36,702 nucleotides of DNA from a virus. Positions 1,050-28,150 of this stretch are shown piece after piece. Position 1 is the first letter of the stretch; the number at the start of each line of letters is the position of its first letter. A program made the position numbers and the translations under genes. The notes beneath the pieces are model-generated. The model saw nothing but the letters and a program-made list of their open reading frames with translations. It searched no databases and had not been told where the DNA came from. The stretch covers positions 1-36,702 of IMG/VR virus record IMGVR_UViG_3300022686_000028. The stretch is one strand, 5' to 3'.

Positions 1050-2261
1050 TTACAAGAAGTCCCATAAGTGGACAGTTTGAGGACACCATCTCATAAAAAA
1101 CACGTCGGCCGGATCTCTTGAGATTATTGGCTGACCGTTGACGTCAAGCGGTACTGGTGTGGACACCGCGTAGCCGCTTTCGCCACTCTGTTGGATTGGT
1201 ACATTCGGCGCGCGGCCAGCAGGTGATATCTCGTCTGGCGAACTGCCGGCAGTGAACTTCCCGCCGAACCCGTCGTCGACTCCAGGCAATGCTAAGCGGT
1301 TGAGACCAGCGTTCTGAACGTCTTGGCACCAGCCGCACTCACGAACAAAGATCCCATAGTTTACTTCCCAATATCTGAACGTATCCTCGCCTGGGCAAGT
1401 TCTTGCACGCATCGTCCAATCAATTTCGATAAAGCCAGTTTCGGGTGCAATTGTAATTAGCGGATTCTGCCCCCAGCACGGATGCGACAATTGCACCTCT
1501 GTTTTGTTGAGGCTATCGCGCTTGCAGCGCACGTCGTTTGGATCGAACCCATCGAGGTGGTACCACCGCGTGTAAGAAACCTCGACGTCGCTCACCCGCT
1601 TTATAATTCCGGTGATCTTATCACCAGCGGTGTTGACAGGTGCAACGCATCCAAACATTCCATCGTTCACCGGGACGTCAATAATCGGATAACTGATCCC
1701 CGGCACCCTTGGAGCAATAGGCTTTAGGATCGAATCACCCTCAATCTCGAAATCCGGGCAGGCACAAGTGTCGACCGTGCAGAGCTGCTGCAGATCGCCA
1801 GCGCGATAGAGGCCGCCGAATATTGCCTTTTCCGCTTCGATGTTTCGCGGATTGCTCCGCTCACGGTATAGCGGACACCAATCTACCGGATCACAACTGG
1901 TTTCGCCTACCGGTGGTGGAGGCGGTTGCTGTCCTTGGATTTGTTCGTAATGTTCCGTGATAATGTAGCGATGCCGCTTACCGCCATCGATCGACTTGCC
2001 GCGGCCAACGTTGATCCTCTGCAGGATCGATCCACCATCTGGTTGCGTTACCGCCGACGTCGCAGCAACAGTGCCAGCTGGGATTCCCGGATACGGAGCG
2101 CCAGCAACATTTATACAATCCGATTCTACTTGGGCAGCTTCGATTAGAGCATTCGGATCGTACGGCGCATCGGTTGTGATTCGGTACCTGATAACATACT
2201 GGCGACTGGTTAGCTCTCGCGTACCTTCAACGTCGACTAGACAGCATTCGATAATCGTCAT
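1050..2261 (-). CDS. Conserved tail-associated protein after the tape measure gene, 403 aa
   Basis: The start ATG at 2261 overlaps the TGA of the tape measure gene by 4 nt (ATGA). The C-terminal third has a YWEVNYGIFVRECGW-like block, then a VPLDVNGQPI segment, and ends in a WDFL motif. This resembles a phage tail family that I associate with the position after the tape measure gene, in which a GW block precedes a 'PxxLDxxGQP' turn and a DFxxL end. The protein is Cys-rich (CDPVDWCP, CTVDTCACP), which suggests disulfides or metal binding in the assembled tail tip. The molecular function is unknown. Confidence 0.65.
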   Translation of the reverse strand: MTIIECCLVDVEGTRELTSRQYVIRYRITTDAPYDPNALIEAAQVESDCINVAGAPYPGIPAGTVAATSAVTQPDGGSILQRINVGRGKSIDGGKRHRYIITEHYEQIQGQQPPPPPVGETSCDPVDWCPLYRERSNPRNIEAEKAIFGGLYRAGDLQQLCTVDTCACPDFEIEGDSILKPIAPRVPGISYPIIDVPVNDGMFGCVAPVNTAGDKITGIIKRVSDVEVSYTRWYHLDGFDPNDVRCKRDSLNKTEVQLSHPCWGQNPLITIAPETGFIEIDWTMRARTCPGEDTFRYWEVNYGIFVRECGWCQDVQNAGLNRLALPGVDDGFGGKFTAGSSPDEISPAGRAPNVPIQQSGESGYAVSTPVPLDVNGQPIISRDPADVFFMRWCPQTVHLWDFL

Positions 2262-4141
2262 GGCAAAGTCACCTGCGCAATCGAAAGGTTGATGTCGTCG
2301 CCATCATCCTCTTGGGCAGCCAACAGATCACGCAACACCAGTTCGATTTGTGCCAGCAGTAGGTTACGGCGTTCATCCTCAGGCGCAACACGTCGCGAGG
2401 CGCCAGCGATCGCCGCGTCCAGACCCTGAATACGTTGGGCCAGTTCTCCGATGCTGCCACGCTCCGTGGCGGTTACAAACGACTGTTGCTGTCTGATCGT
2501 AGGCTGTTTTTTTGTGAGAGCAAGCGTTTCGTCTGCGAATTCGGTTTTCGCTTGCTGCAGCGCCCTCAAAATAAAATCCGCGGTGTCCTCACCAAACACT
2601 TCGATCCCTCGCAGCTTTGATATCTTTTCGAATTCCTCCCGAAACTTCTCCATCGGCGTCAACAACTGCTTGCGCATTATCTCAGCCTGCCGTTCCAGAA
2701 TCGTCACCTCATCGCCAAGAGTACCGCGTAACTTTTCCGCTGCTGTCTGCAATTCAGGAAATGCTAGATCTTCGTCGAAAAAGAATTCGAGGGCTTGCAG
2801 ATCAAGTTCTCGTTGCGCCTCCTCTGCAGCGTGCTTTGCTTGTGACGCTGCATTCCTTGCAATAAAATCGTCAAAATCAGGACGGCGCACGGGGGTATCT
2901 CGGATGTTCCCAAAAAGGATGTCCCAGGCCAGGTTTGTGCCAGTTACTGCATCGTCCAGAAAACCGATGGCTGCAGAAAAAGCATTGATGCTCGCGATCT
3001 TGGTTGGCTCGAACGTCTTCGAAACGTTGATCCCTAGCTTGTCCCACGATGCGCTTAACGTGTTGGTTGCCACGTCCAGCTCAGTCAGCTGGCGTTTAGA
3101 AACAAGATCGACGAAATCTCCGGCATTACGCAAAGCTGTTTCGAACTCTCGTATTTTTTCGGACGTCCCGATGAGTGCCTGTAATGAAGCGACAGACTTA
3201 TCAGAAAAGCCGAGATCTAGAAGCAGCTTCTTTTTCTGCAAATCAGAGGACAGTTGTGAAAAACGATCCTCGATATCGCCAATGATATTCGCGAACCCGG
3301 CGAAATTGTCTTGCGCATTGAAGACGGTTATTCCGGCTTCCTCAAACGCCTTTTTGTTTTGGATCGCCTTTGTCGTAAGATCACGCAGGACAATCGCGAG
3401 CTGCGTTCCGGCCAGGGAATCCTTAACACCTTGATCCGCAAATGCAGCTAGGACGGCAACACCCTCTTCAATTTCGATGTTAAACGCACGCAGTGCTGGA
3501 CCCGCCTTAGTTGTCAACGCCGTGGAGAATTGCTGAACTGATGCATTCGCCAGCGTGTTCGCACGTACAAGGACATCGCCGACTCGTTCGAGCTGTGCCA
3601 GGTTTTCAAGAGGATCGATGCGAACCAGGCCAAGGGCGCTTTGTGCGTCCGTAACCAAATCAACAGCCGTCGCCAAATCGAACGCACCGGCCTGAGCAAA
3701 GCGAGAAACGAACCCGATCGATTCAAGTTGCTGTTCCGCAGTCTGGCCGGCAGATGCTAAGAAAAAGAATCCGCGGGAAATCTCCTCCGCACTGGCCCGC
3801 ACGGTGAAGCTTGTTTCAATTGCCGCTCGTTTTAGTGATTCGGTAAGCGTTCCGGTAAGTGTCGTTTGGATGGCAACACTTTCAGCAAACGTTCGATTGA
3901 ACTGCTCGCCGGTTGCAATAAGATCGCTTAGAGAGCTCGTAATGAGTCGAACGCCCGCGGCCACACCCAGGCCGGTGGTAAGCGTCCGCAGGCTTCCAAA
4001 TGCAGTCGCAAGTCCAGTGCTGGTTTGCTTTCCAGTCCGGTTTAAGCTTCGTAGCGCCGCCTCATTTTGTTTGAGATCAACCCGCAGCGCTTTCCCGTTG
4101 CCAACGATCGAAACATTCAAACGAGCGATGTTCGTGGCCAT
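2258..4141 (-). CDS. Tail tape measure protein, 627 aa
   Basis: The protein sets tail length and is the chaperone client during siphovirus tail assembly. Residues about 90-300 match the PhageMin_Tail / TIGR01760 type: the SAEEISRGFFFLASAGQ block, then long Ala/Leu helices with SVQQF and ALTTKAGPALRAF segments. A hydrophobic stretch lies near residues 57-80, and the C-terminal half is predominantly helical and coiled. At 627 aa it is short for the family. The usual rule of about 0.15 nm per residue implies a tail near 90-95 nm. It directly follows the frameshifted chaperone genes, as expected. The start at 4141 has no clear Shine-Dalgarno sequence, so coupling to the chaperone stop at 4148 is likely. 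Confidence 0.9.
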   Translation of the reverse strand: MATNIARLNVSIVGNGKALRVDLKQNEAALRSLNRTGKQTSTGLATAFGSLRTLTTGLGVAAGVRLITSSLSDLIATGEQFNRTFAESVAIQTTLTGTLTESLKRAAIETSFTVRASAEEISRGFFFLASAGQTAEQQLESIGFVSRFAQAGAFDLATAVDLVTDAQSALGLVRIDPLENLAQLERVGDVLVRANTLANASVQQFSTALTTKAGPALRAFNIEIEEGVAVLAAFADQGVKDSLAGTQLAIVLRDLTTKAIQNKKAFEEAGITVFNAQDNFAGFANIIGDIEDRFSQLSSDLQKKKLLLDLGFSDKSVASLQALIGTSEKIREFETALRNAGDFVDLVSKRQLTELDVATNTLSASWDKLGINVSKTFEPTKIASINAFSAAIGFLDDAVTGTNLAWDILFGNIRDTPVRRPDFDDFIARNAASQAKHAAEEAQRELDLQALEFFFDEDLAFPELQTAAEKLRGTLGDEVTILERQAEIMRKQLLTPMEKFREEFEKISKLRGIEVFGEDTADFILRALQQAKTEFADETLALTKKQPTIRQQQSFVTATERGSIGELAQRIQGLDAAIAGASRRVAPEDERRNLLLAQIELVLRDLLAAQEDDGDDINLSIAQVTLP

Positions 4142-8117: not shown

Positions 8118-9581
8118 TTATGCAGCCTCTACCAAAAACCGGACAAAGTCACAATCGTTCACGACGCCGCCGCCGGTATAGCCACGAACAACCCAGCAGG
8201 TGCGATTCGAAAAAATGTTCGTGTCTTTTTTCGTATCCGTTGCCGGACCGTCGAGAATCAAAAATGACGAAAAGTCACCGAACACACCTGGGAAAGTGCC
8301 GTCGGTTTCGAAATCGCCAACAATCGTTTCGGAAATGTTGACGGGATGACCAAACAACGCCGGTCGCGAAGTCCCTTCGCCAACGCCTTGTGACAGCAAC
8401 GTTTGCCAAAAATAAAAGTTATCGTTGCCGTCTTTGAGTTTCAGGATTTGGCACCATGCCGTGTTAGAAAACAGCCACTGCGCACGGTTACTCGCACAGT
8501 TTGGTAACGCACACATCGCATCGATCAGCTTGTCCGGCGTCAAACCAGAGTCTGGAGTCAGGACAGGATCAGTCGACAAGCCGTTCGGGTGCAGAATCCC
8601 AAGCGGCCCCGCCTGGCCGTCGTCGTACAGATACAGAAACTCAAGGTTCTCTCGCAAGTCGCGCGTCAACTCATCCATGAGCAATCGCTCGGGATTCATC
8701 ATCGTAAACTTCAACAGCGCATCGCAAATGCCAGTGCACTGAGTCCACGGTTGCGGCCTGAATTCGATCCGGTCGCCCTCGGGGATATCGCACTTTGCTG
8801 GAGGTTCGCACTCGCAACCCTTGGCAAACGACGCCAACCGTTTAGTCAATCGTGGGATCGAGATCCCGATCGATGTCACGGTGACGACGTTGGCGATCGA
8901 GCGCATGACAACCGACTTGTCGCAGCATTTCTGCAACTCGGATGCGAACATCATCGGGTTAAGCATAAATCCGCCAGTGGCGAAATCACTCGGCCCCATG
9001 GTAGTACCGCATCCATCGTCGTTACACTCGTTCCAAACCTCATGCAGCCTGGTAACAAACACGTCGTGCCCTTGGACGTTTTTAACGGTGTCTCGCCACG
9101 CCTTACGGTACTTATCCGAATTCAGAGTTTTGCACGAAATCATTTTGCCGTCGTGCATGATCGTTTCGGAGTCGATAGGCTCGTACTGCCCTGGAGCGCC
9201 ACAGCGGAAAGTTGGAACGTTTGGCGACTGAGTCTGCCCACCGAAGTGTGGCATATTGCTGCCAAACTGTTGAGCGATCGCCTGAATGACTTCGGGCGAT
9301 AGCCCCGCTGTGCCCGATGCACCGTCGTCGCCTGGCTTCGTTCCAGGCTTGGCGTTCGAGATCAGCTTTTGCGCGTCAGCAGCAAGCTTCGCTTGCGATT
9401 CAAGCTTTGCTCGCTCGGTTTCGATTTGACCCTGGAGGTCGGTATATTCCGTCATCAAGTTGTTGATTTCGGTCACCTGGCCCTCGTCCCATTCGCCTTT
9501 TTCCTCGCGGGTTTTGTTGAGGTTTTTCAAGCGGTTGTGGACGTCGGCCTTTTTATCTTCAAGTTCGCCAATGGCTGGCAT
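8118..9581 (-). CDS. Major capsid protein, HK97 fold, with N-terminal scaffolding (delta) domain, 487 aa
   Basis: Residues 1-75 form a highly charged coiled coil (LEDKKADVHNRLKNLNKT, QGQIETERAKLESQAK) typical of the delta domain of HK97 gp5. A Gly/Pro-rich linker follows (about 78-125), where a maturation protease would cut. The remainder has capsid-fold features: a SDFATGGFMLNPMMFASELQK segment at the N-arm/E-loop junction, ENLEFLYLYDDGQAGPLGIL and a final GGGVVNDCDFVRFL strand. The partner protease and portal lie upstream. GGGGAG precedes the ATG. An intrinsic terminator lies only 23 nt before the start, which is unusual for a highly expressed gene. Confidence 0.92.
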   Translation of the reverse strand: MPAIGELEDKKADVHNRLKNLNKTREEKGEWDEGQVTEINNLMTEYTDLQGQIETERAKLESQAKLAADAQKLISNAKPGTKPGDDGASGTAGLSPEVIQAIAQQFGSNMPHFGGQTQSPNVPTFRCGAPGQYEPIDSETIMHDGKMISCKTLNSDKYRKAWRDTVKNVQGHDVFVTRLHEVWNECNDDGCGTTMGPSDFATGGFMLNPMMFASELQKCCDKSVVMRSIANVVTVTSIGISIPRLTKRLASFAKGCECEPPAKCDIPEGDRIEFRPQPWTQCTGICDALLKFTMMNPERLLMDELTRDLRENLEFLYLYDDGQAGPLGILHPNGLSTDPVLTPDSGLTPDKLIDAMCALPNCASNRAQWLFSNTAWCQILKLKDGNDNFYFWQTLLSQGVGEGTSRPALFGHPVNISETIVGDFETDGTFPGVFGDFSSFLILDGPATDTKKDTNIFSNRTCWVVRGYTGGGVVNDCDFVRFLVEAA

Positions 9582-9604
9582 GATTCTGTTTACTCCCCGC
9601 GCAC

Positions 9605-9644
9605 AAAAAAACGAGCGAGACCCCTTTTCGGGGATCTCGCTCGT
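9605..9644 (-). terminator. Strong intrinsic terminator just upstream of the capsid gene
   Basis: On the minus strand a 10-bp arm ACGAGCGAGA plus CCCC pairs across a small loop with GGGG plus TCTCGCTCGT, with one bulged base, and is followed by seven Ts. The T tract ends 23 nt before the capsid ATG at 9581. A bulged 14-bp stem plus T tract is a textbook Rho-independent terminator. Confidence 0.9.
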
Positions 9645-9730
9645 TGTACGGCGCGATACCGGTGAATTTATTAGTTCGAATTGTTCACGCGGTAGCCGCC
9701 GTCGTTGTACGCGGGAGGTCTACCTATCTG
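9645..9730 (-). ncRNA. Short leader transcript between promoter and terminator (candidate sRNA or attenuator leader)
   Basis: Initiation about 7 nt downstream of the TCTAAT box would give an RNA of roughly 120 nt ending at the terminator at 9605. The segment contains a repeated GTACAACGA motif, once in the middle and once abutting the hairpin. It also has a frame without a good start that ends in TAATAA. I see no obvious anti-terminator arm complementary to the hairpin. Existence of the RNA is inferred from the promoter and terminator only. Confidence 0.45.
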
Positions 9731-9736
9731 CAGTCA

Positions 9737-9766
9737 ATTAGAGGCACGAACCGCTCAAAGTGTCAA
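9737..9766 (-). promoter_or_regulatory. Sigma70-type promoter upstream of the capsid leader
   Basis: The minus strand reads TTGACA (9761-9766, perfect -35), an 18-nt spacer, then TCTAAT (9737-9742, five of six matches to TATAAT). It lies in the 190-bp gap between the 116-aa gene and the capsid gene, outside any coding frame, with the -10 box about 90 nt upstream of the terminator. Confidence 0.65.
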
Positions 9767-9774
9767 GGGCAGCG

Positions 9775-10125
9775 TTATAACAGCTCGAAAACACCCACAG
9801 TTACGGACGTAACCGAGTCATAGGTCCATTTGACTTTGTTGTCAGCCGGATCGTTCCAGCGACCTTTCGGCAGCGGACCGATGAGGTGCGTTTCTCCGGC
9901 CGGCACGGTTACGGCCGAATCGTGGTCGAATCCCTGGCTACAATTTGATTGTGAGTTGACGGTTACGATGATCGGGCCGCCGCCCCCGTTTGCCACCGCA
10001 ATGAACGTGTGCGCAGCGTTCGGCACATTGTTCAGGACCTCATCGCCGGCGACGTCAGCCGCCACGAGGGAACCAACCAGGTCGATCCCGCCGATCGGGA
10101 TTGTGTTACGTGTTAGAGTTGCCAT
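9775..10125 (-). CDS. Small virion-type beta protein, 116 aa (possible capsid decoration)
   Basis: The protein is rich in Val, Thr, Gly and Asp, with alternating strands (TFIAVANGGGGPIIVTV, WTYDSVTSVTVGVFELL) and a VPAGETHLIGPLP turn. This is the pattern of an Ig-like or jelly-roll decoration domain. The ATG at 10125 has a strong GAGGAGG Shine-Dalgarno sequence, consistent with high expression. It lies directly before the capsid gene, between the fibre gene and the capsid promoter. A decoration role is an inference from place, size and expected abundance. Confidence 0.55.
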   Translation of the reverse strand: MATLTRNTIPIGGIDLVGSLVAADVAGDEVLNNVPNAAHTFIAVANGGGGPIIVTVNSQSNCSQGFDHDSAVTVPAGETHLIGPLPKGRWNDPADNKVKWTYDSVTSVTVGVFELL

Positions 10126-10140
10126 GTGCGATTCCCTCCT

Positions 10141-11640
10141 CTAAGTAAACCACTCGGTTTCCGATAATCCCCTCAACACGATGCTCGCGCCAGCTGCCAG
10201 GGTAATTGATGCGTCAGTTGCCCCGCCATTTATTGAGTCACCGACGCCAGGAAAGATCTGCAACGTATTCGCGCCAGTGTTTCTGATGTAGCAGATTGAA
10301 CCCTCGGTGCAAAGGAACAGCGTAACCGCATCGTTCGTTGTCGTGACAGTTGCGACCTCGTTACGCTCGGCAATGATCGCTGTACCGCCGGCCTGGGTTT
10401 GTGTCGCACTGGCTGCGATCCCGGTGTCGGCGAGCTTCGTTCTGCCGCGGGCGGTCACGTTCTCAATATTGTGCTGGCATGGGGTTATGTACGGCTTGAC
10501 CGCGCCATTAGATTCGGAAGAGGTTAACGCTGCGTAAGTTTTTGGTGTACCGTGATTATGGTACTGACACCGATCTACAATGACCTCGGGTGTTCCGCCA
10601 GTTCCGTCTTGAGTCACGAGCACCTCACCCTCGCGTAAAACAAAATGGCCGCGATTCACAAATAGGCCGACGTCGCCAATTACCTTTATTCGGGAGTCCT
10701 GAGCGGTTGCGCCGCCAGATAAGTTGCCGTGACAGTCTTGCACGACTAAGTTGCTCATGGTCGTACCGCTCACACTTGCGTCGAGTTCAATATCAGCTCG
10801 ATCGTTTCCGGTCGAACCCTCGTTATTACTCTCAAACCAAGTGTTATAAATGTTGACCCCGTTGAACTCGTCATTGGCAGCAGCCACAGTCATCGCGATA
10901 GCCGGACCCTCGTTGCCTTCGAACCAACAATCGTGAAAGTTGTATTGTGCGCCGCGTGCCCACCCCAATGGCGAGAACGCACCATTTAGAGGGAGGTTAT
11001 TATCCCATCGACAATTTTCAAATGTGACAAGGTTGGCGGTAGTAGAGCCTGGAGTCCCCGTTGCGTCGTGTGTTGTTTTGGTGTTTTGACGAAACCATAG
11101 ATTTCTAAAGCGAGAGCCAATCGTCCAACAATAAAAGATCGGTTCCTTGAACAACGCCATTTTCATGTTTTCAAAAATCATCCGATTCCAGAATACAGTA
11201 GGCGCGTTTATCAAGCTGTTGAAATTATTCCAGTAACCATTGTTCACCCAGAATCGTCCGCTGCCAGTTCCTGATCCAACGAACGCCGAATCCCCAACCG
11301 CTACAGGCTTTATGTTTGCTTGTGGCGCGCAAAGAATGGCAATCGTCCCATCGGCACCCTTGCCTGCTGCCGCTGCTGCTGCCTGGATGTCGATGTCTTT
11401 AATGCGATGGACACCGCCAGCCGATGGACCAACCGGCGGTACCCAAATCGCATGACCGTCATCAAGAACCTTTTGCCACGCCGCGCTTTGGTCGGTTGCC
11501 GTGCCGAGTGCACTGTACTCGGCCGGATCAACCAAGTCGAAATCGTTTTCTAGTCCAGGCCCTGGCGGTCCTTGTGGTCCTGGCGGCCCTTGTGGACCAA
11601 CACCGCCGCTAGGCGAACAGCAGTCAGATTGAAAGATCAT
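10141..11640 (-). CDS. Collagen-like plus right-handed beta-helix fibre/spike, 499 aa
   Basis: Residues 15-29 are five Gly-X-Y triplets (GPQGPPGPQGPPGPG), a trimerising collagen-like stem. They are followed by a pectate-lyase-type beta-helix from about residue 60 to 370, with repeated N/D-rich rungs such as FENCRWDNN, FHDCWFEGNEG and IYNTWFESNNE. The C-terminal domain (about 420-499) is a beta cap with the TLQIFPGVGDSINGG and LAAGASIVL turns seen at the ends of phage fibres. The start is preceded by CTGGAG. The gene lies inside the head block, between the maturation protease and the capsid gene, so it may be a capsid-attached fibre rather than a tail fibre. No hydrolase active site is evident. 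Confidence 0.78.
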   Translation of the reverse strand: MIFQSDCCSPSGGVGPQGPPGPQGPPGPGLENDFDLVDPAEYSALGTATDQSAAWQKVLDDGHAIWVPPVGPSAGGVHRIKDIDIQAAAAAAGKGADGTIAILCAPQANIKPVAVGDSAFVGSGTGSGRFWVNNGYWNNFNSLINAPTVFWNRMIFENMKMALFKEPIFYCWTIGSRFRNLWFRQNTKTTHDATGTPGSTTANLVTFENCRWDNNLPLNGAFSPLGWARGAQYNFHDCWFEGNEGPAIAMTVAAANDEFNGVNIYNTWFESNNEGSTGNDRADIELDASVSGTTMSNLVVQDCHGNLSGGATAQDSRIKVIGDVGLFVNRGHFVLREGEVLVTQDGTGGTPEVIVDRCQYHNHGTPKTYAALTSSESNGAVKPYITPCQHNIENVTARGRTKLADTGIAASATQTQAGGTAIIAERNEVATVTTTNDAVTLFLCTEGSICYIRNTGANTLQIFPGVGDSINGGATDASITLAAGASIVLRGLSETEWFT

Positions 11641-23138: not shown

Positions 23139-24008
23139 CTACGCCGCGCGTTCCAGCCAAGTTTCCTGGATCACTCGTTGTTGGTTTATCCATTCGCCCA
23201 CAGTTTGGAGCATGAGTACCTTATCACCGTCGTCGTCGGGCGGTGGAGTCGGATCAGGATCCGGGCCGCTCGGTTTGCCGTACAGTTTTTGGATTGCTCG
23301 AATGTCGCTCGGCCCTGGTTCTTGAGTGCCGTTGATTGCGTAGTACATGATTGAGTTGGGGTCGTTGTCGTGATCGAGGCCGTCAGCGTGACCTATCTCG
23401 TGGCACATTGTCGGCCGTAAAAACGTTCGCTCGCGAGTATCCCAATTCTCAAAATCGTAGCGCTGTTCGAGCTGTACGCTACGCTTTGCGTTTGGTGGCG
23501 GAAGCATCGACCAAGCAAGCGTTCCGTTCGGACCGTCGATCCGCCGCGCATGCGCAAACACGTTTGGCGGTGTCTGCAGGTTGGGGATCCACTTCATATC
23601 GAGCTTTGATACGTCGTTCCACATCTGGCACGCTTCGAGGTAGATTGTTTTCGCTTCCTCGTGTGTCACACCAGGAAATTCCATGTCGTGCCAGACCTGG
23701 ACGTCCAAGAACGACCAGTTCGATCCGCCAGCGCCACGAATGTCCGGACAGCCACAACGACGTTGCAACATGGTTCGCGCAGTCTTGCCGCCGAATTCGC
23801 CGTCGACGATCTGCGACGTGTACCGCTGTAACGAGGCAGTCGCATCCGCAAATAAAGATGACTTATGATCTGTCACCTTCGAGCGAATAGACTCAGCCGT
23901 TCCGTCGTCAACGCACGGCCAGCGATCGGAGACGAAATGGCCGAGCTTGATAAGCAACTCAAGCTTATCGTCGAACGTCTGCGGCACGAGCTTGCGAACT
24001 AAGTACAT
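23139..24008 (-). CDS. Matrixin-type (M10) zinc metalloprotease with PG-binding-like prodomain and cysteine switch, 289 aa
   Basis: Counted from ATG 24008: residues about 47-82 resemble PG_binding_1 (SLFADATASLQRYTS, GEFGGKTARTMLQRR). Directly after comes RCGCPD (84-89), the matrixin cysteine switch (PRCGxPD) that holds the zymogen inactive. The catalytic domain follows, with zinc ligands in HEIGHADGLDH (203-213; Glu204 catalytic) and the Met-turn SIMYY (Met221). A Pro/Asp linker (about 245-262) leads to a short C-terminal helix. It lies in the lysis block and is the only peptidoglycan- or envelope-directed enzyme candidate there. I see no signal peptide, so a holin would be needed for release. 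A TTG at 24029 is a less likely start. Confidence 0.85.
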   Translation of the reverse strand: MYLVRKLVPQTFDDKLELLIKLGHFVSDRWPCVDDGTAESIRSKVTDHKSSLFADATASLQRYTSQIVDGEFGGKTARTMLQRRCGCPDIRGAGGSNWSFLDVQVWHDMEFPGVTHEEAKTIYLEACQMWNDVSKLDMKWIPNLQTPPNVFAHARRIDGPNGTLAWSMLPPPNAKRSVQLEQRYDFENWDTRERTFLRPTMCHEIGHADGLDHDNDPNSIMYYAINGTQEPGPSDIRAIQKLYGKPSGPDPDPTPPPDDDGDKVLMLQTVGEWINQQRVIQETWLERAA

Positions 24009-24012
24009 GCGA

Positions 24013-24291
24013 CTAGCCAAGACCCCCAATCAACGCGAACAGTTCTTTAAGAAACGCGATGATCTCCGGCCATTCGTCGAGGAACTTTTGAAACAACGTT
24101 CCGTCGCCTAACGCTTTCTCAACATTGTGGCGGCCGATCAATTGTTCCAGCTTGACAACTGCAGCGTCAAGCAAGTCATCATCGCGCAACGTAGCGCGGA
24201 GCAAAGCAACCTGTTCGTGATCACCCTCATGCCGAGCTTTGCGCATTTCAATGCGCGTCGCTAACCGCGCGTGCAGCCGAAATCTTTTCAT
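24013..24291 (-). CDS. Hypothetical protein in the lysis block, 92 aa
   Basis: ATG 24291 has GGAGAGGTGAT directly upstream and overlaps the end of the preceding gene, which favours it over 24327. The N-terminal third is strongly basic (MKRFRLHARLATRIEMRKARH). The middle is acidic and helical, and the C-terminus is a hydrophobic amphipathic helix (IIAFLKELFALIGGLG). It has no recognised domain. It may be a membrane-associated lysis accessory. Confidence 0.55.
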   Translation of the reverse strand: MKRFRLHARLATRIEMRKARHEGDHEQVALLRATLRDDDLLDAAVVKLEQLIGRHNVEKALGDGTLFQKFLDEWPEIIAFLKELFALIGGLG

Positions 24292-27448: not shown

Positions 27449-28150
27449 CTAGGGACACATCGGCATCAGTGCACACTGACCGCCATCAAAACGTATCGAT
27501 ACCATCTCCTCGGGATCGCAAGACAAAGAGTATTCCGCACCGGGTAGCTGTGTGATGAGTTGATGGTATTTCGGTGAGATCGTGCGTTTGTCGAGGAACT
27601 GCATTGATGGTGCGTCTGGTCCGATAGACGCGCCATTGCAGCATGGGCACACGACGCCGCCAACTTTGCCGCCGGTGCAAGACGGGCATTTGTCGAATCC
27701 AAGTCGAGTCCCATACACAACCACAGGTGTCACCCCCTCACCCTCGCACTCTCCGCACCATGTAAAGTCAATTTTTCCGTATCCGTCACAGCGCCAGCAA
27801 AAACCGTTTGGATAGCCGACGTAATTCGCTCGTGGCCAAGGGCGCCAGCGATCACCTTGCCATTTGTCCTCAAAAATCCCATCAAGAGGTGGGATGCGAG
27901 CTTCTGAATCAACGTCAATCAGTTCGGCGCACTTTTCTACGCGGATAGCCACGCGCGCATCGGTAGCCGACGCGAATCCTTTTTGCACAAATGGCTCTGT
28001 AATGTCGTATCTGTGCAACCCCTCTGGATCACAGAACTGTTGTAGCAGCTCAAAGGGGAACGGCTTGGCATCGTCAAACCACTCTGGAACCAACCGCCAC
28101 GTCGGTAGCAGCAGTGCGCTGCCAGCAGCCAGGAATGTTCTACGTTGCAT
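27449..28150 (-). CDS. Tat-signal protein with DnaJ-like Cys-rich zinc domain, 233 aa
   Basis: It starts at ATG 28150 with AAGGTG upstream. Residues 1-18 (MQRRTFLAAGSALLLPTW) are a twin-arginine signal. The middle region (about 118-175) has four CxxC pairs, CWRCDGYG, CGECEGEG, CPSCTGG and CPCCNG. This is the CxxCxGxG pattern of the DnaJ/DnaK-partner zinc domain. Flanks are unique. Combining an export signal with a cysteine-rich domain is unusual for a phage early protein. It may act outside the cytoplasm, but nothing in the sequence fixes the function. Confidence 0.7.
   Translation of the reverse strand: MQRRTFLAAGSALLLPTWRLVPEWFDDAKPFPFELLQQFCDPEGLHRYDITEPFVQKGFASATDARVAIRVEKCAELIDVDSEARIPPLDGIFEDKWQGDRWRPWPRANYVGYPNGFCWRCDGYGKIDFTWCGECEGEGVTPVVVYGTRLGFDKCPSCTGGKVGGVVCPCCNGASIGPDAPSMQFLDKRTISPKYHQLITQLPGAEYSLSCDPEEMVSIRFDGGQCALMPMCP

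Follow-up and report, generated by a model that had tools for sequence, protein, structure and literature searches.

How can a capsid gene be expressed when a strong terminator stands between the gene and its promoter? An initial annotation raised this question for the 36,702-nt virus record IMGVR_UViG_3300022686_000028 (here called the window), which was read from sequence alone. The recognisable genes of the 36.7-kb window lie on the minus strand, as do all its regulatory features described below. The gene in question (positions 8118 to 9581, with its ATG at 9581) encodes a 487-aa protein that matched Phage_capsid (E 2e-18) and the phrog_10 major head protein (E 7e-24), indicating that what had been called the capsid gene is a true HK97-type major capsid protein gene. 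Upstream of it lie genes for a 116-aa structural protein (9775 to 10125; phrog_16194 tail protein, E 6e-14), a collagen/beta-helix protein, a ClpP-type protease, the portal, and the terminase. The gap before the capsid gene measures 193 nt and is the largest among the structural-gene gaps. The collagen-like/beta-helix protein (GPQGPPGPQGPPGP near its N-terminus) and the 116-aa protein are encoded between the protease and capsid genes (9775 to 11640), and relatives of the 116-aa protein in loci L169-L172 sit near tail genes. The tape-measure protein (2258 to 4141) showed 47% identity to that of L169-L171 over 300 residues, whereas the portal, protease, and capsid proteins showed only about 25-35% identity to their own relatives, and the genome is therefore mosaic. 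The gene at 23139 to 24029 encodes a matrixin-domain protein (Peptidase_M10, E 2e-14).

The annotation had placed the end of a T tract 23 nt before the capsid ATG, and the terminator was found exactly there. The hairpin AACGAGCGAGATCCCCGAAAAGGGGTCTCGCTCGTT (9610 to 9645) comprises 15 bp and a 6-nt loop, with a predicted free energy of -27.3 kcal/mol. With nine G-C pairs among its 15 bp and a T7 tract after it (9605 to 9611, as read from the letters, the first two T residues pairing at the stem base), it has the sequence of an intrinsic terminator. When both strands of the window were scanned, the second-best terminator reached -18.0 kcal/mol, and no other part of the genome is as structured, relative to its G+C content, as the 140-nt region around the hairpin. 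The T tract is directly followed by the motif TGCGC (9599 to 9603). Since only 23 nt separate the T tract from the ATG, no promoter fits after the hairpin, and therefore capsid message can come only from polymerases that have crossed it. No DNA copies of the hairpin were found in viral contigs. The single similar stem found outside viral contigs was a palindromic terminator between convergent genes of a Caldilineaceae contig (L173, 2540 to 2590), whose stem is nearly the same (GAGCGAGATCCC).

The promoter that had been noted upstream, TTGACA-N18-TCTAAT, is also present (9737 to 9766). It matches the sigma-70 consensus at 11 of 12 positions and begins 8 nt past the stop codon of the upstream gene; its -35 element TTGACA (9766-9761) is followed by an 18-nt spacer and the -10 element TCTAAT (9742-9737), from which a transcription start at about 9730 is predicted. 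No other sigma-70 match with at most one mismatch was found in the window (expectation about 0.17 per strand), and the promoter scored at p 0.01 against shuffles. The sole mismatch (TCTAAT for TATAAT) falls on what we take to be the most conserved base of the -10 element. Because of it, the promoter was omitted by a mechanical promoter scan, and we consider the promoter plausible rather than certain. From the predicted start, the leader up to the hairpin would be 91 nt long and the terminated RNA about 126 nt (9605 to 9730), close to the lengths of about 90 and 120 nt given earlier.

Does this layout occur elsewhere? Single-protein scans with the capsid protein and TerL yielded no close relatives. 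Distant relatives were found by a scan with a portal alignment, which gave 46 distinct loci including the window, and the capsid genes in all loci were located by an iterated profile. Of the 46, 20 carry a hairpin with a T tract that scores -18 kcal/mol or better and lies no more than 130 nt from the start of the capsid gene. Judged by the rate elsewhere on the same strand, 0.032 such hairpins per locus (about 1.5 in 46) would be expected by chance. A mechanical gene tiling gave a similar picture, with hairpins in 13/43 capsid gaps vs 16/498 other gaps. The distance from the end of the predicted hairpin to the start codon is mostly 24-53 nt, and 9 of 21 distinct leaders have TGCGC after the T tract, against a background of 0.012. 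In one subgroup, the stem is maintained via two-sided changes at 3 of 18 pairs. The start codons used are mechanical predictions, the relatives are not fully independent, and the data had already been looked at when we settled on the -18 cut and on TGCGC as the motif, so the p-values given here are only indicative.

Other hairpins were also seen. Firmicutes-type hairpins before the capsid gene are weaker and overlap the protease gene at its end; they were kept apart from the main group. Terminator-like hairpins, each with a T tract, also occur directly before the portal gene (L108, L046, L084, and others), in 28 of 92 distinct related loci vs 3 in antisense orientation. In Rhizobium/Sinorhizobium phages (L251-L253, L257), the protease and capsid genes are separated by a long hairpin that lacks a T tract and may be a relic or some other kind of element.

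The hairpins of the main group are accompanied by promoters. When the sequence upstream of the hairpin was compared with shuffles, 13 of 21 leaders had a best sigma-70 match at p<=0.05, vs 0 of 25 loci without a hairpin (Fisher p 2e-6). These promoters, for example TTGACA-17-TAGAAT in L208 and TTGACA-18-TAAAAT in L216, are similarly placed, and many overlap the end of the upstream gene. The predicted leader RNAs are mostly 70-140 nt long, with 72-139 nt the usual span among the relatives. In two isolated relatives, Burkholderia phage KS9 and Halomonas phage H4907, no recognisable promoter accompanies the capsid hairpin; a hairpin can therefore exist without a gate. Judged by its sequence, the promoter-leader-terminator arrangement before the capsid gene is a recurrent module in about 20 distantly related uncultured phages. 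This recurrence, together with the co-occurrence of promoter and hairpin, strengthens the original reading of the three elements as one unit ahead of the capsid gene. In a limited search of the literature, we found no report of such a unit upstream of a capsid gene.

The leader itself is less uniform. A direct repeat found only in the window has one copy (CGTACAACGA, 9702 to 9711) overlapping the 5' strand of a predicted outer helix P1 (9716-9705) and a second copy (9641 to 9650) at the 5' foot of the terminator hairpin. The 3' strand of P1 (UUGUGCGCGGGG, 9595 to 9606) needs bases beyond the T tract, and P1 would therefore form only in read-through RNA, where it is predicted to cover most of the ribosome-binding site GGGGAG (9598-9593). 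Together with a helix P2 (9648 to 9702), it closes a predicted three-way junction. Shuffling the upstream part gave no equally good fold in 300 trials, shuffling the downstream part gave 3 in 300, and for the P2 region alone 6 of 500 shuffles folded as well. The upstream-shuffle z was -4.2 in the window and mostly near zero in the relatives (at best -2.2); the leader structure upstream of the hairpin is not conserved there and adds little structure. For this reason, we rejected burial of the ribosome-binding site by a three-way junction as a general mechanism and treat the predicted fold as a local addition particular to the window phage, not a shared one. We likewise rejected the idea that the outer inverted repeat belongs to a mobile element or retron, as no copies and no adjoining reverse transcriptase were found. 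Neither the window nor the leaders of 12 relatives gave an Rfam match, the only yield being an unrelated tRNA in L175, and the leaders share no linear motif beyond shuffles.

If the hairpin terminates efficiently, how is it passed? Classical attenuation, one option offered by the initial annotation, was not supported. We found no competing antiterminator helix, and the terminated RNA folds to -51.4 kcal/mol vs -33.2 kcal/mol with the 5' arm of the hairpin blocked, a cost of 18 kcal/mol. The arrangement resembles attenuators and riboswitches in having a leader with a terminator between promoter and gene, but it differs from them in that the window has no competing helix, recognised leader peptide, known ligand fold, or Rfam match. 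A search for a phage-encoded antitermination factor had also been proposed. Among about 40 open reading frames of the window scanned with PHROGs, Pfam, or NCBIfam, no antiterminator gene of the Q type or another known family was detected. A 233-aa protein (27449 to 28150) from a phage family of unknown function showed a weak, sub-threshold match to anti-TRAP (E 0.0013). Anti-TRAP is a zinc-binding regulator, and the 233-aa protein is a possible antiterminator candidate by this sequence match. In 17 leaders, neither Q-type 8-bp tandem repeats nor a -10-like pause element just after the start site was found beyond shuffles. Because tandem repeats, a sigma pause, and a Q homologue were sought and not found, we do not claim membership in the Q class.

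Lambda nevertheless offers a precedent for the logic of a gate, in the combination of PR', the tR' terminator, and the Q protein (PMC4604602) and in Q-type late antitermination generally (PMC8022706). Both systems combine a sigma-70 promoter, a short leader RNA, and an intrinsic terminator ahead of late genes, the likeness on the side of the window being one of sequence. In lambda, the polymerase must be made terminator-resistant; a comparable control of read-through is what we infer here. Unlike pR'-tR', the unit of the window belongs to the head gene cluster, where it precedes the capsid gene, and it has no detectable Q homologue, tandem Q-binding repeats, or -10-like pause. Capsid control of the T7/LUZ100 type also pairs a strong terminator with the capsid gene and places a dedicated promoter immediately ahead of it. 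However, in LUZ100 it is a phage polymerase that recognises the promoter, and the terminator follows the capsid gene (PMC10134795), whereas in the window the terminator lies upstream and the promoter is sigma-70-like. Intrinsic terminators between co-directional structural genes are also found in the late operons of lambdoid phages, namely phage L and P22-like phages (PMC8022706); that of the window differs in having a promoter as partner and in recurring at one position in many distant phages. As PMC8022706 openly states, it is unknown what purpose terminators within phage late operons serve.

From this comparison and the sequence features, we propose that the unit before the capsid gene may be a transcription gate working like lambda pR'-tR', and we put the chances of this reading at about even. 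In this simplest account, host RNA polymerase would start constitutively at the sigma-70 promoter located where the upstream gene ends, make the leader of about 126 nt, and halt at the strong intrinsic terminator. Capsid would be made only by polymerases that pass the hairpin, whether started locally or further upstream, and the tail genes behind the capsid gene would likewise depend on this passage unless internal promoters exist. Late in infection, an antitermination event, as at lambda pR'-tR', would raise hairpin passage. In the window phage, the read-through RNA could in addition fold into the three-way junction that buries the ribosome-binding site. We thus infer efficient termination in vivo, regulated passage, and the existence of an antiterminator.

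A constitutive leaky terminator would look the same as a gate, and it is the main rival of this proposal. Such a fixed terminator inside the operon would always let a set fraction of polymerases pass, tuning the ratio of upstream to downstream message or stopping spurious transcription, and would need no dedicated regulator. Terminators are documented in phage late operons, where partial termination or a block to spurious transcription has been suggested (PMC8022706), and sequential read-through across phage terminators was reported in LUZ100 (PMC10134795). The pre-portal hairpins in 28 of 92 distinct related loci and the promoterless capsid hairpins of KS9 and H4907 also agree with a fixed terminator. 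What it leaves unexplained is the co-occurrence of promoter and hairpin (13/21 vs 0/25), and it gives no reason why a strong terminator would reduce the most needed message; we regard it as unlikely, though it deserves serious consideration. Alternatively, the leader might itself be the product, namely a small RNA of about 70-140 nt that ends at the terminator and has phage or host RNAs as its targets; capsid message would then come from read-through starting upstream. Such an RNA fits the presence of a separate promoter and terminator and the similar predicted sizes across phages. However, the leaders have no conserved linear motif, no Rfam match, and no conserved structure upstream of the hairpin, and the position of the unit before the capsid gene in each case examined suggests a role in cis (the search was aimed at capsid leaders). 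We therefore consider a small RNA quite improbable.

Slightly less probable still is that the hairpin hardly terminates and instead serves in processing or stability, protecting the 3' ends of the upstream message and the 5' ends of cleaved capsid message. Cleavage past the hairpin would leave most of the ribosome-binding site exposed, and the stable stem is maintained by compensatory changes; yet such an element requires neither a T tract nor a promoter, and both recur. We also considered that the collagen/beta-helix gene and the 116-aa gene were inserted as a moron cassette that brought its own terminator. Both genes do lie between protease and capsid genes, which adjoin in several other phages, and relatives of the 116-aa protein are located elsewhere, near tail genes. 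This origin is very improbable, because the promoter-hairpin layout is present right after the gene in the protease position in relatives such as L175, L193, and L196, which have no such cassette, and the G+C content of the cassette is not distinctive.

The transcription gate thus remains our preferred reading, and the presence of the same layout in about twenty phages suggests, at the level of sequence, a conserved on/off gate for making virus shells. Beyond this, we offer more tentatively, as a doubtful but real possibility, that the capsid-proximal promoter-leader-terminator represents an undescribed, widespread late-gene switch in uncultured siphophages. It would use a new kind of antitermination, by a phage protein or by the leader RNA in cis, and TGCGC would be part of the signal. 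The repeated placement of this unit ahead of the capsid gene suggests that particle production has a common decision point, and from the module one would predict that phages without a cultured model possess an antitermination factor or element that has gone unrecognised.
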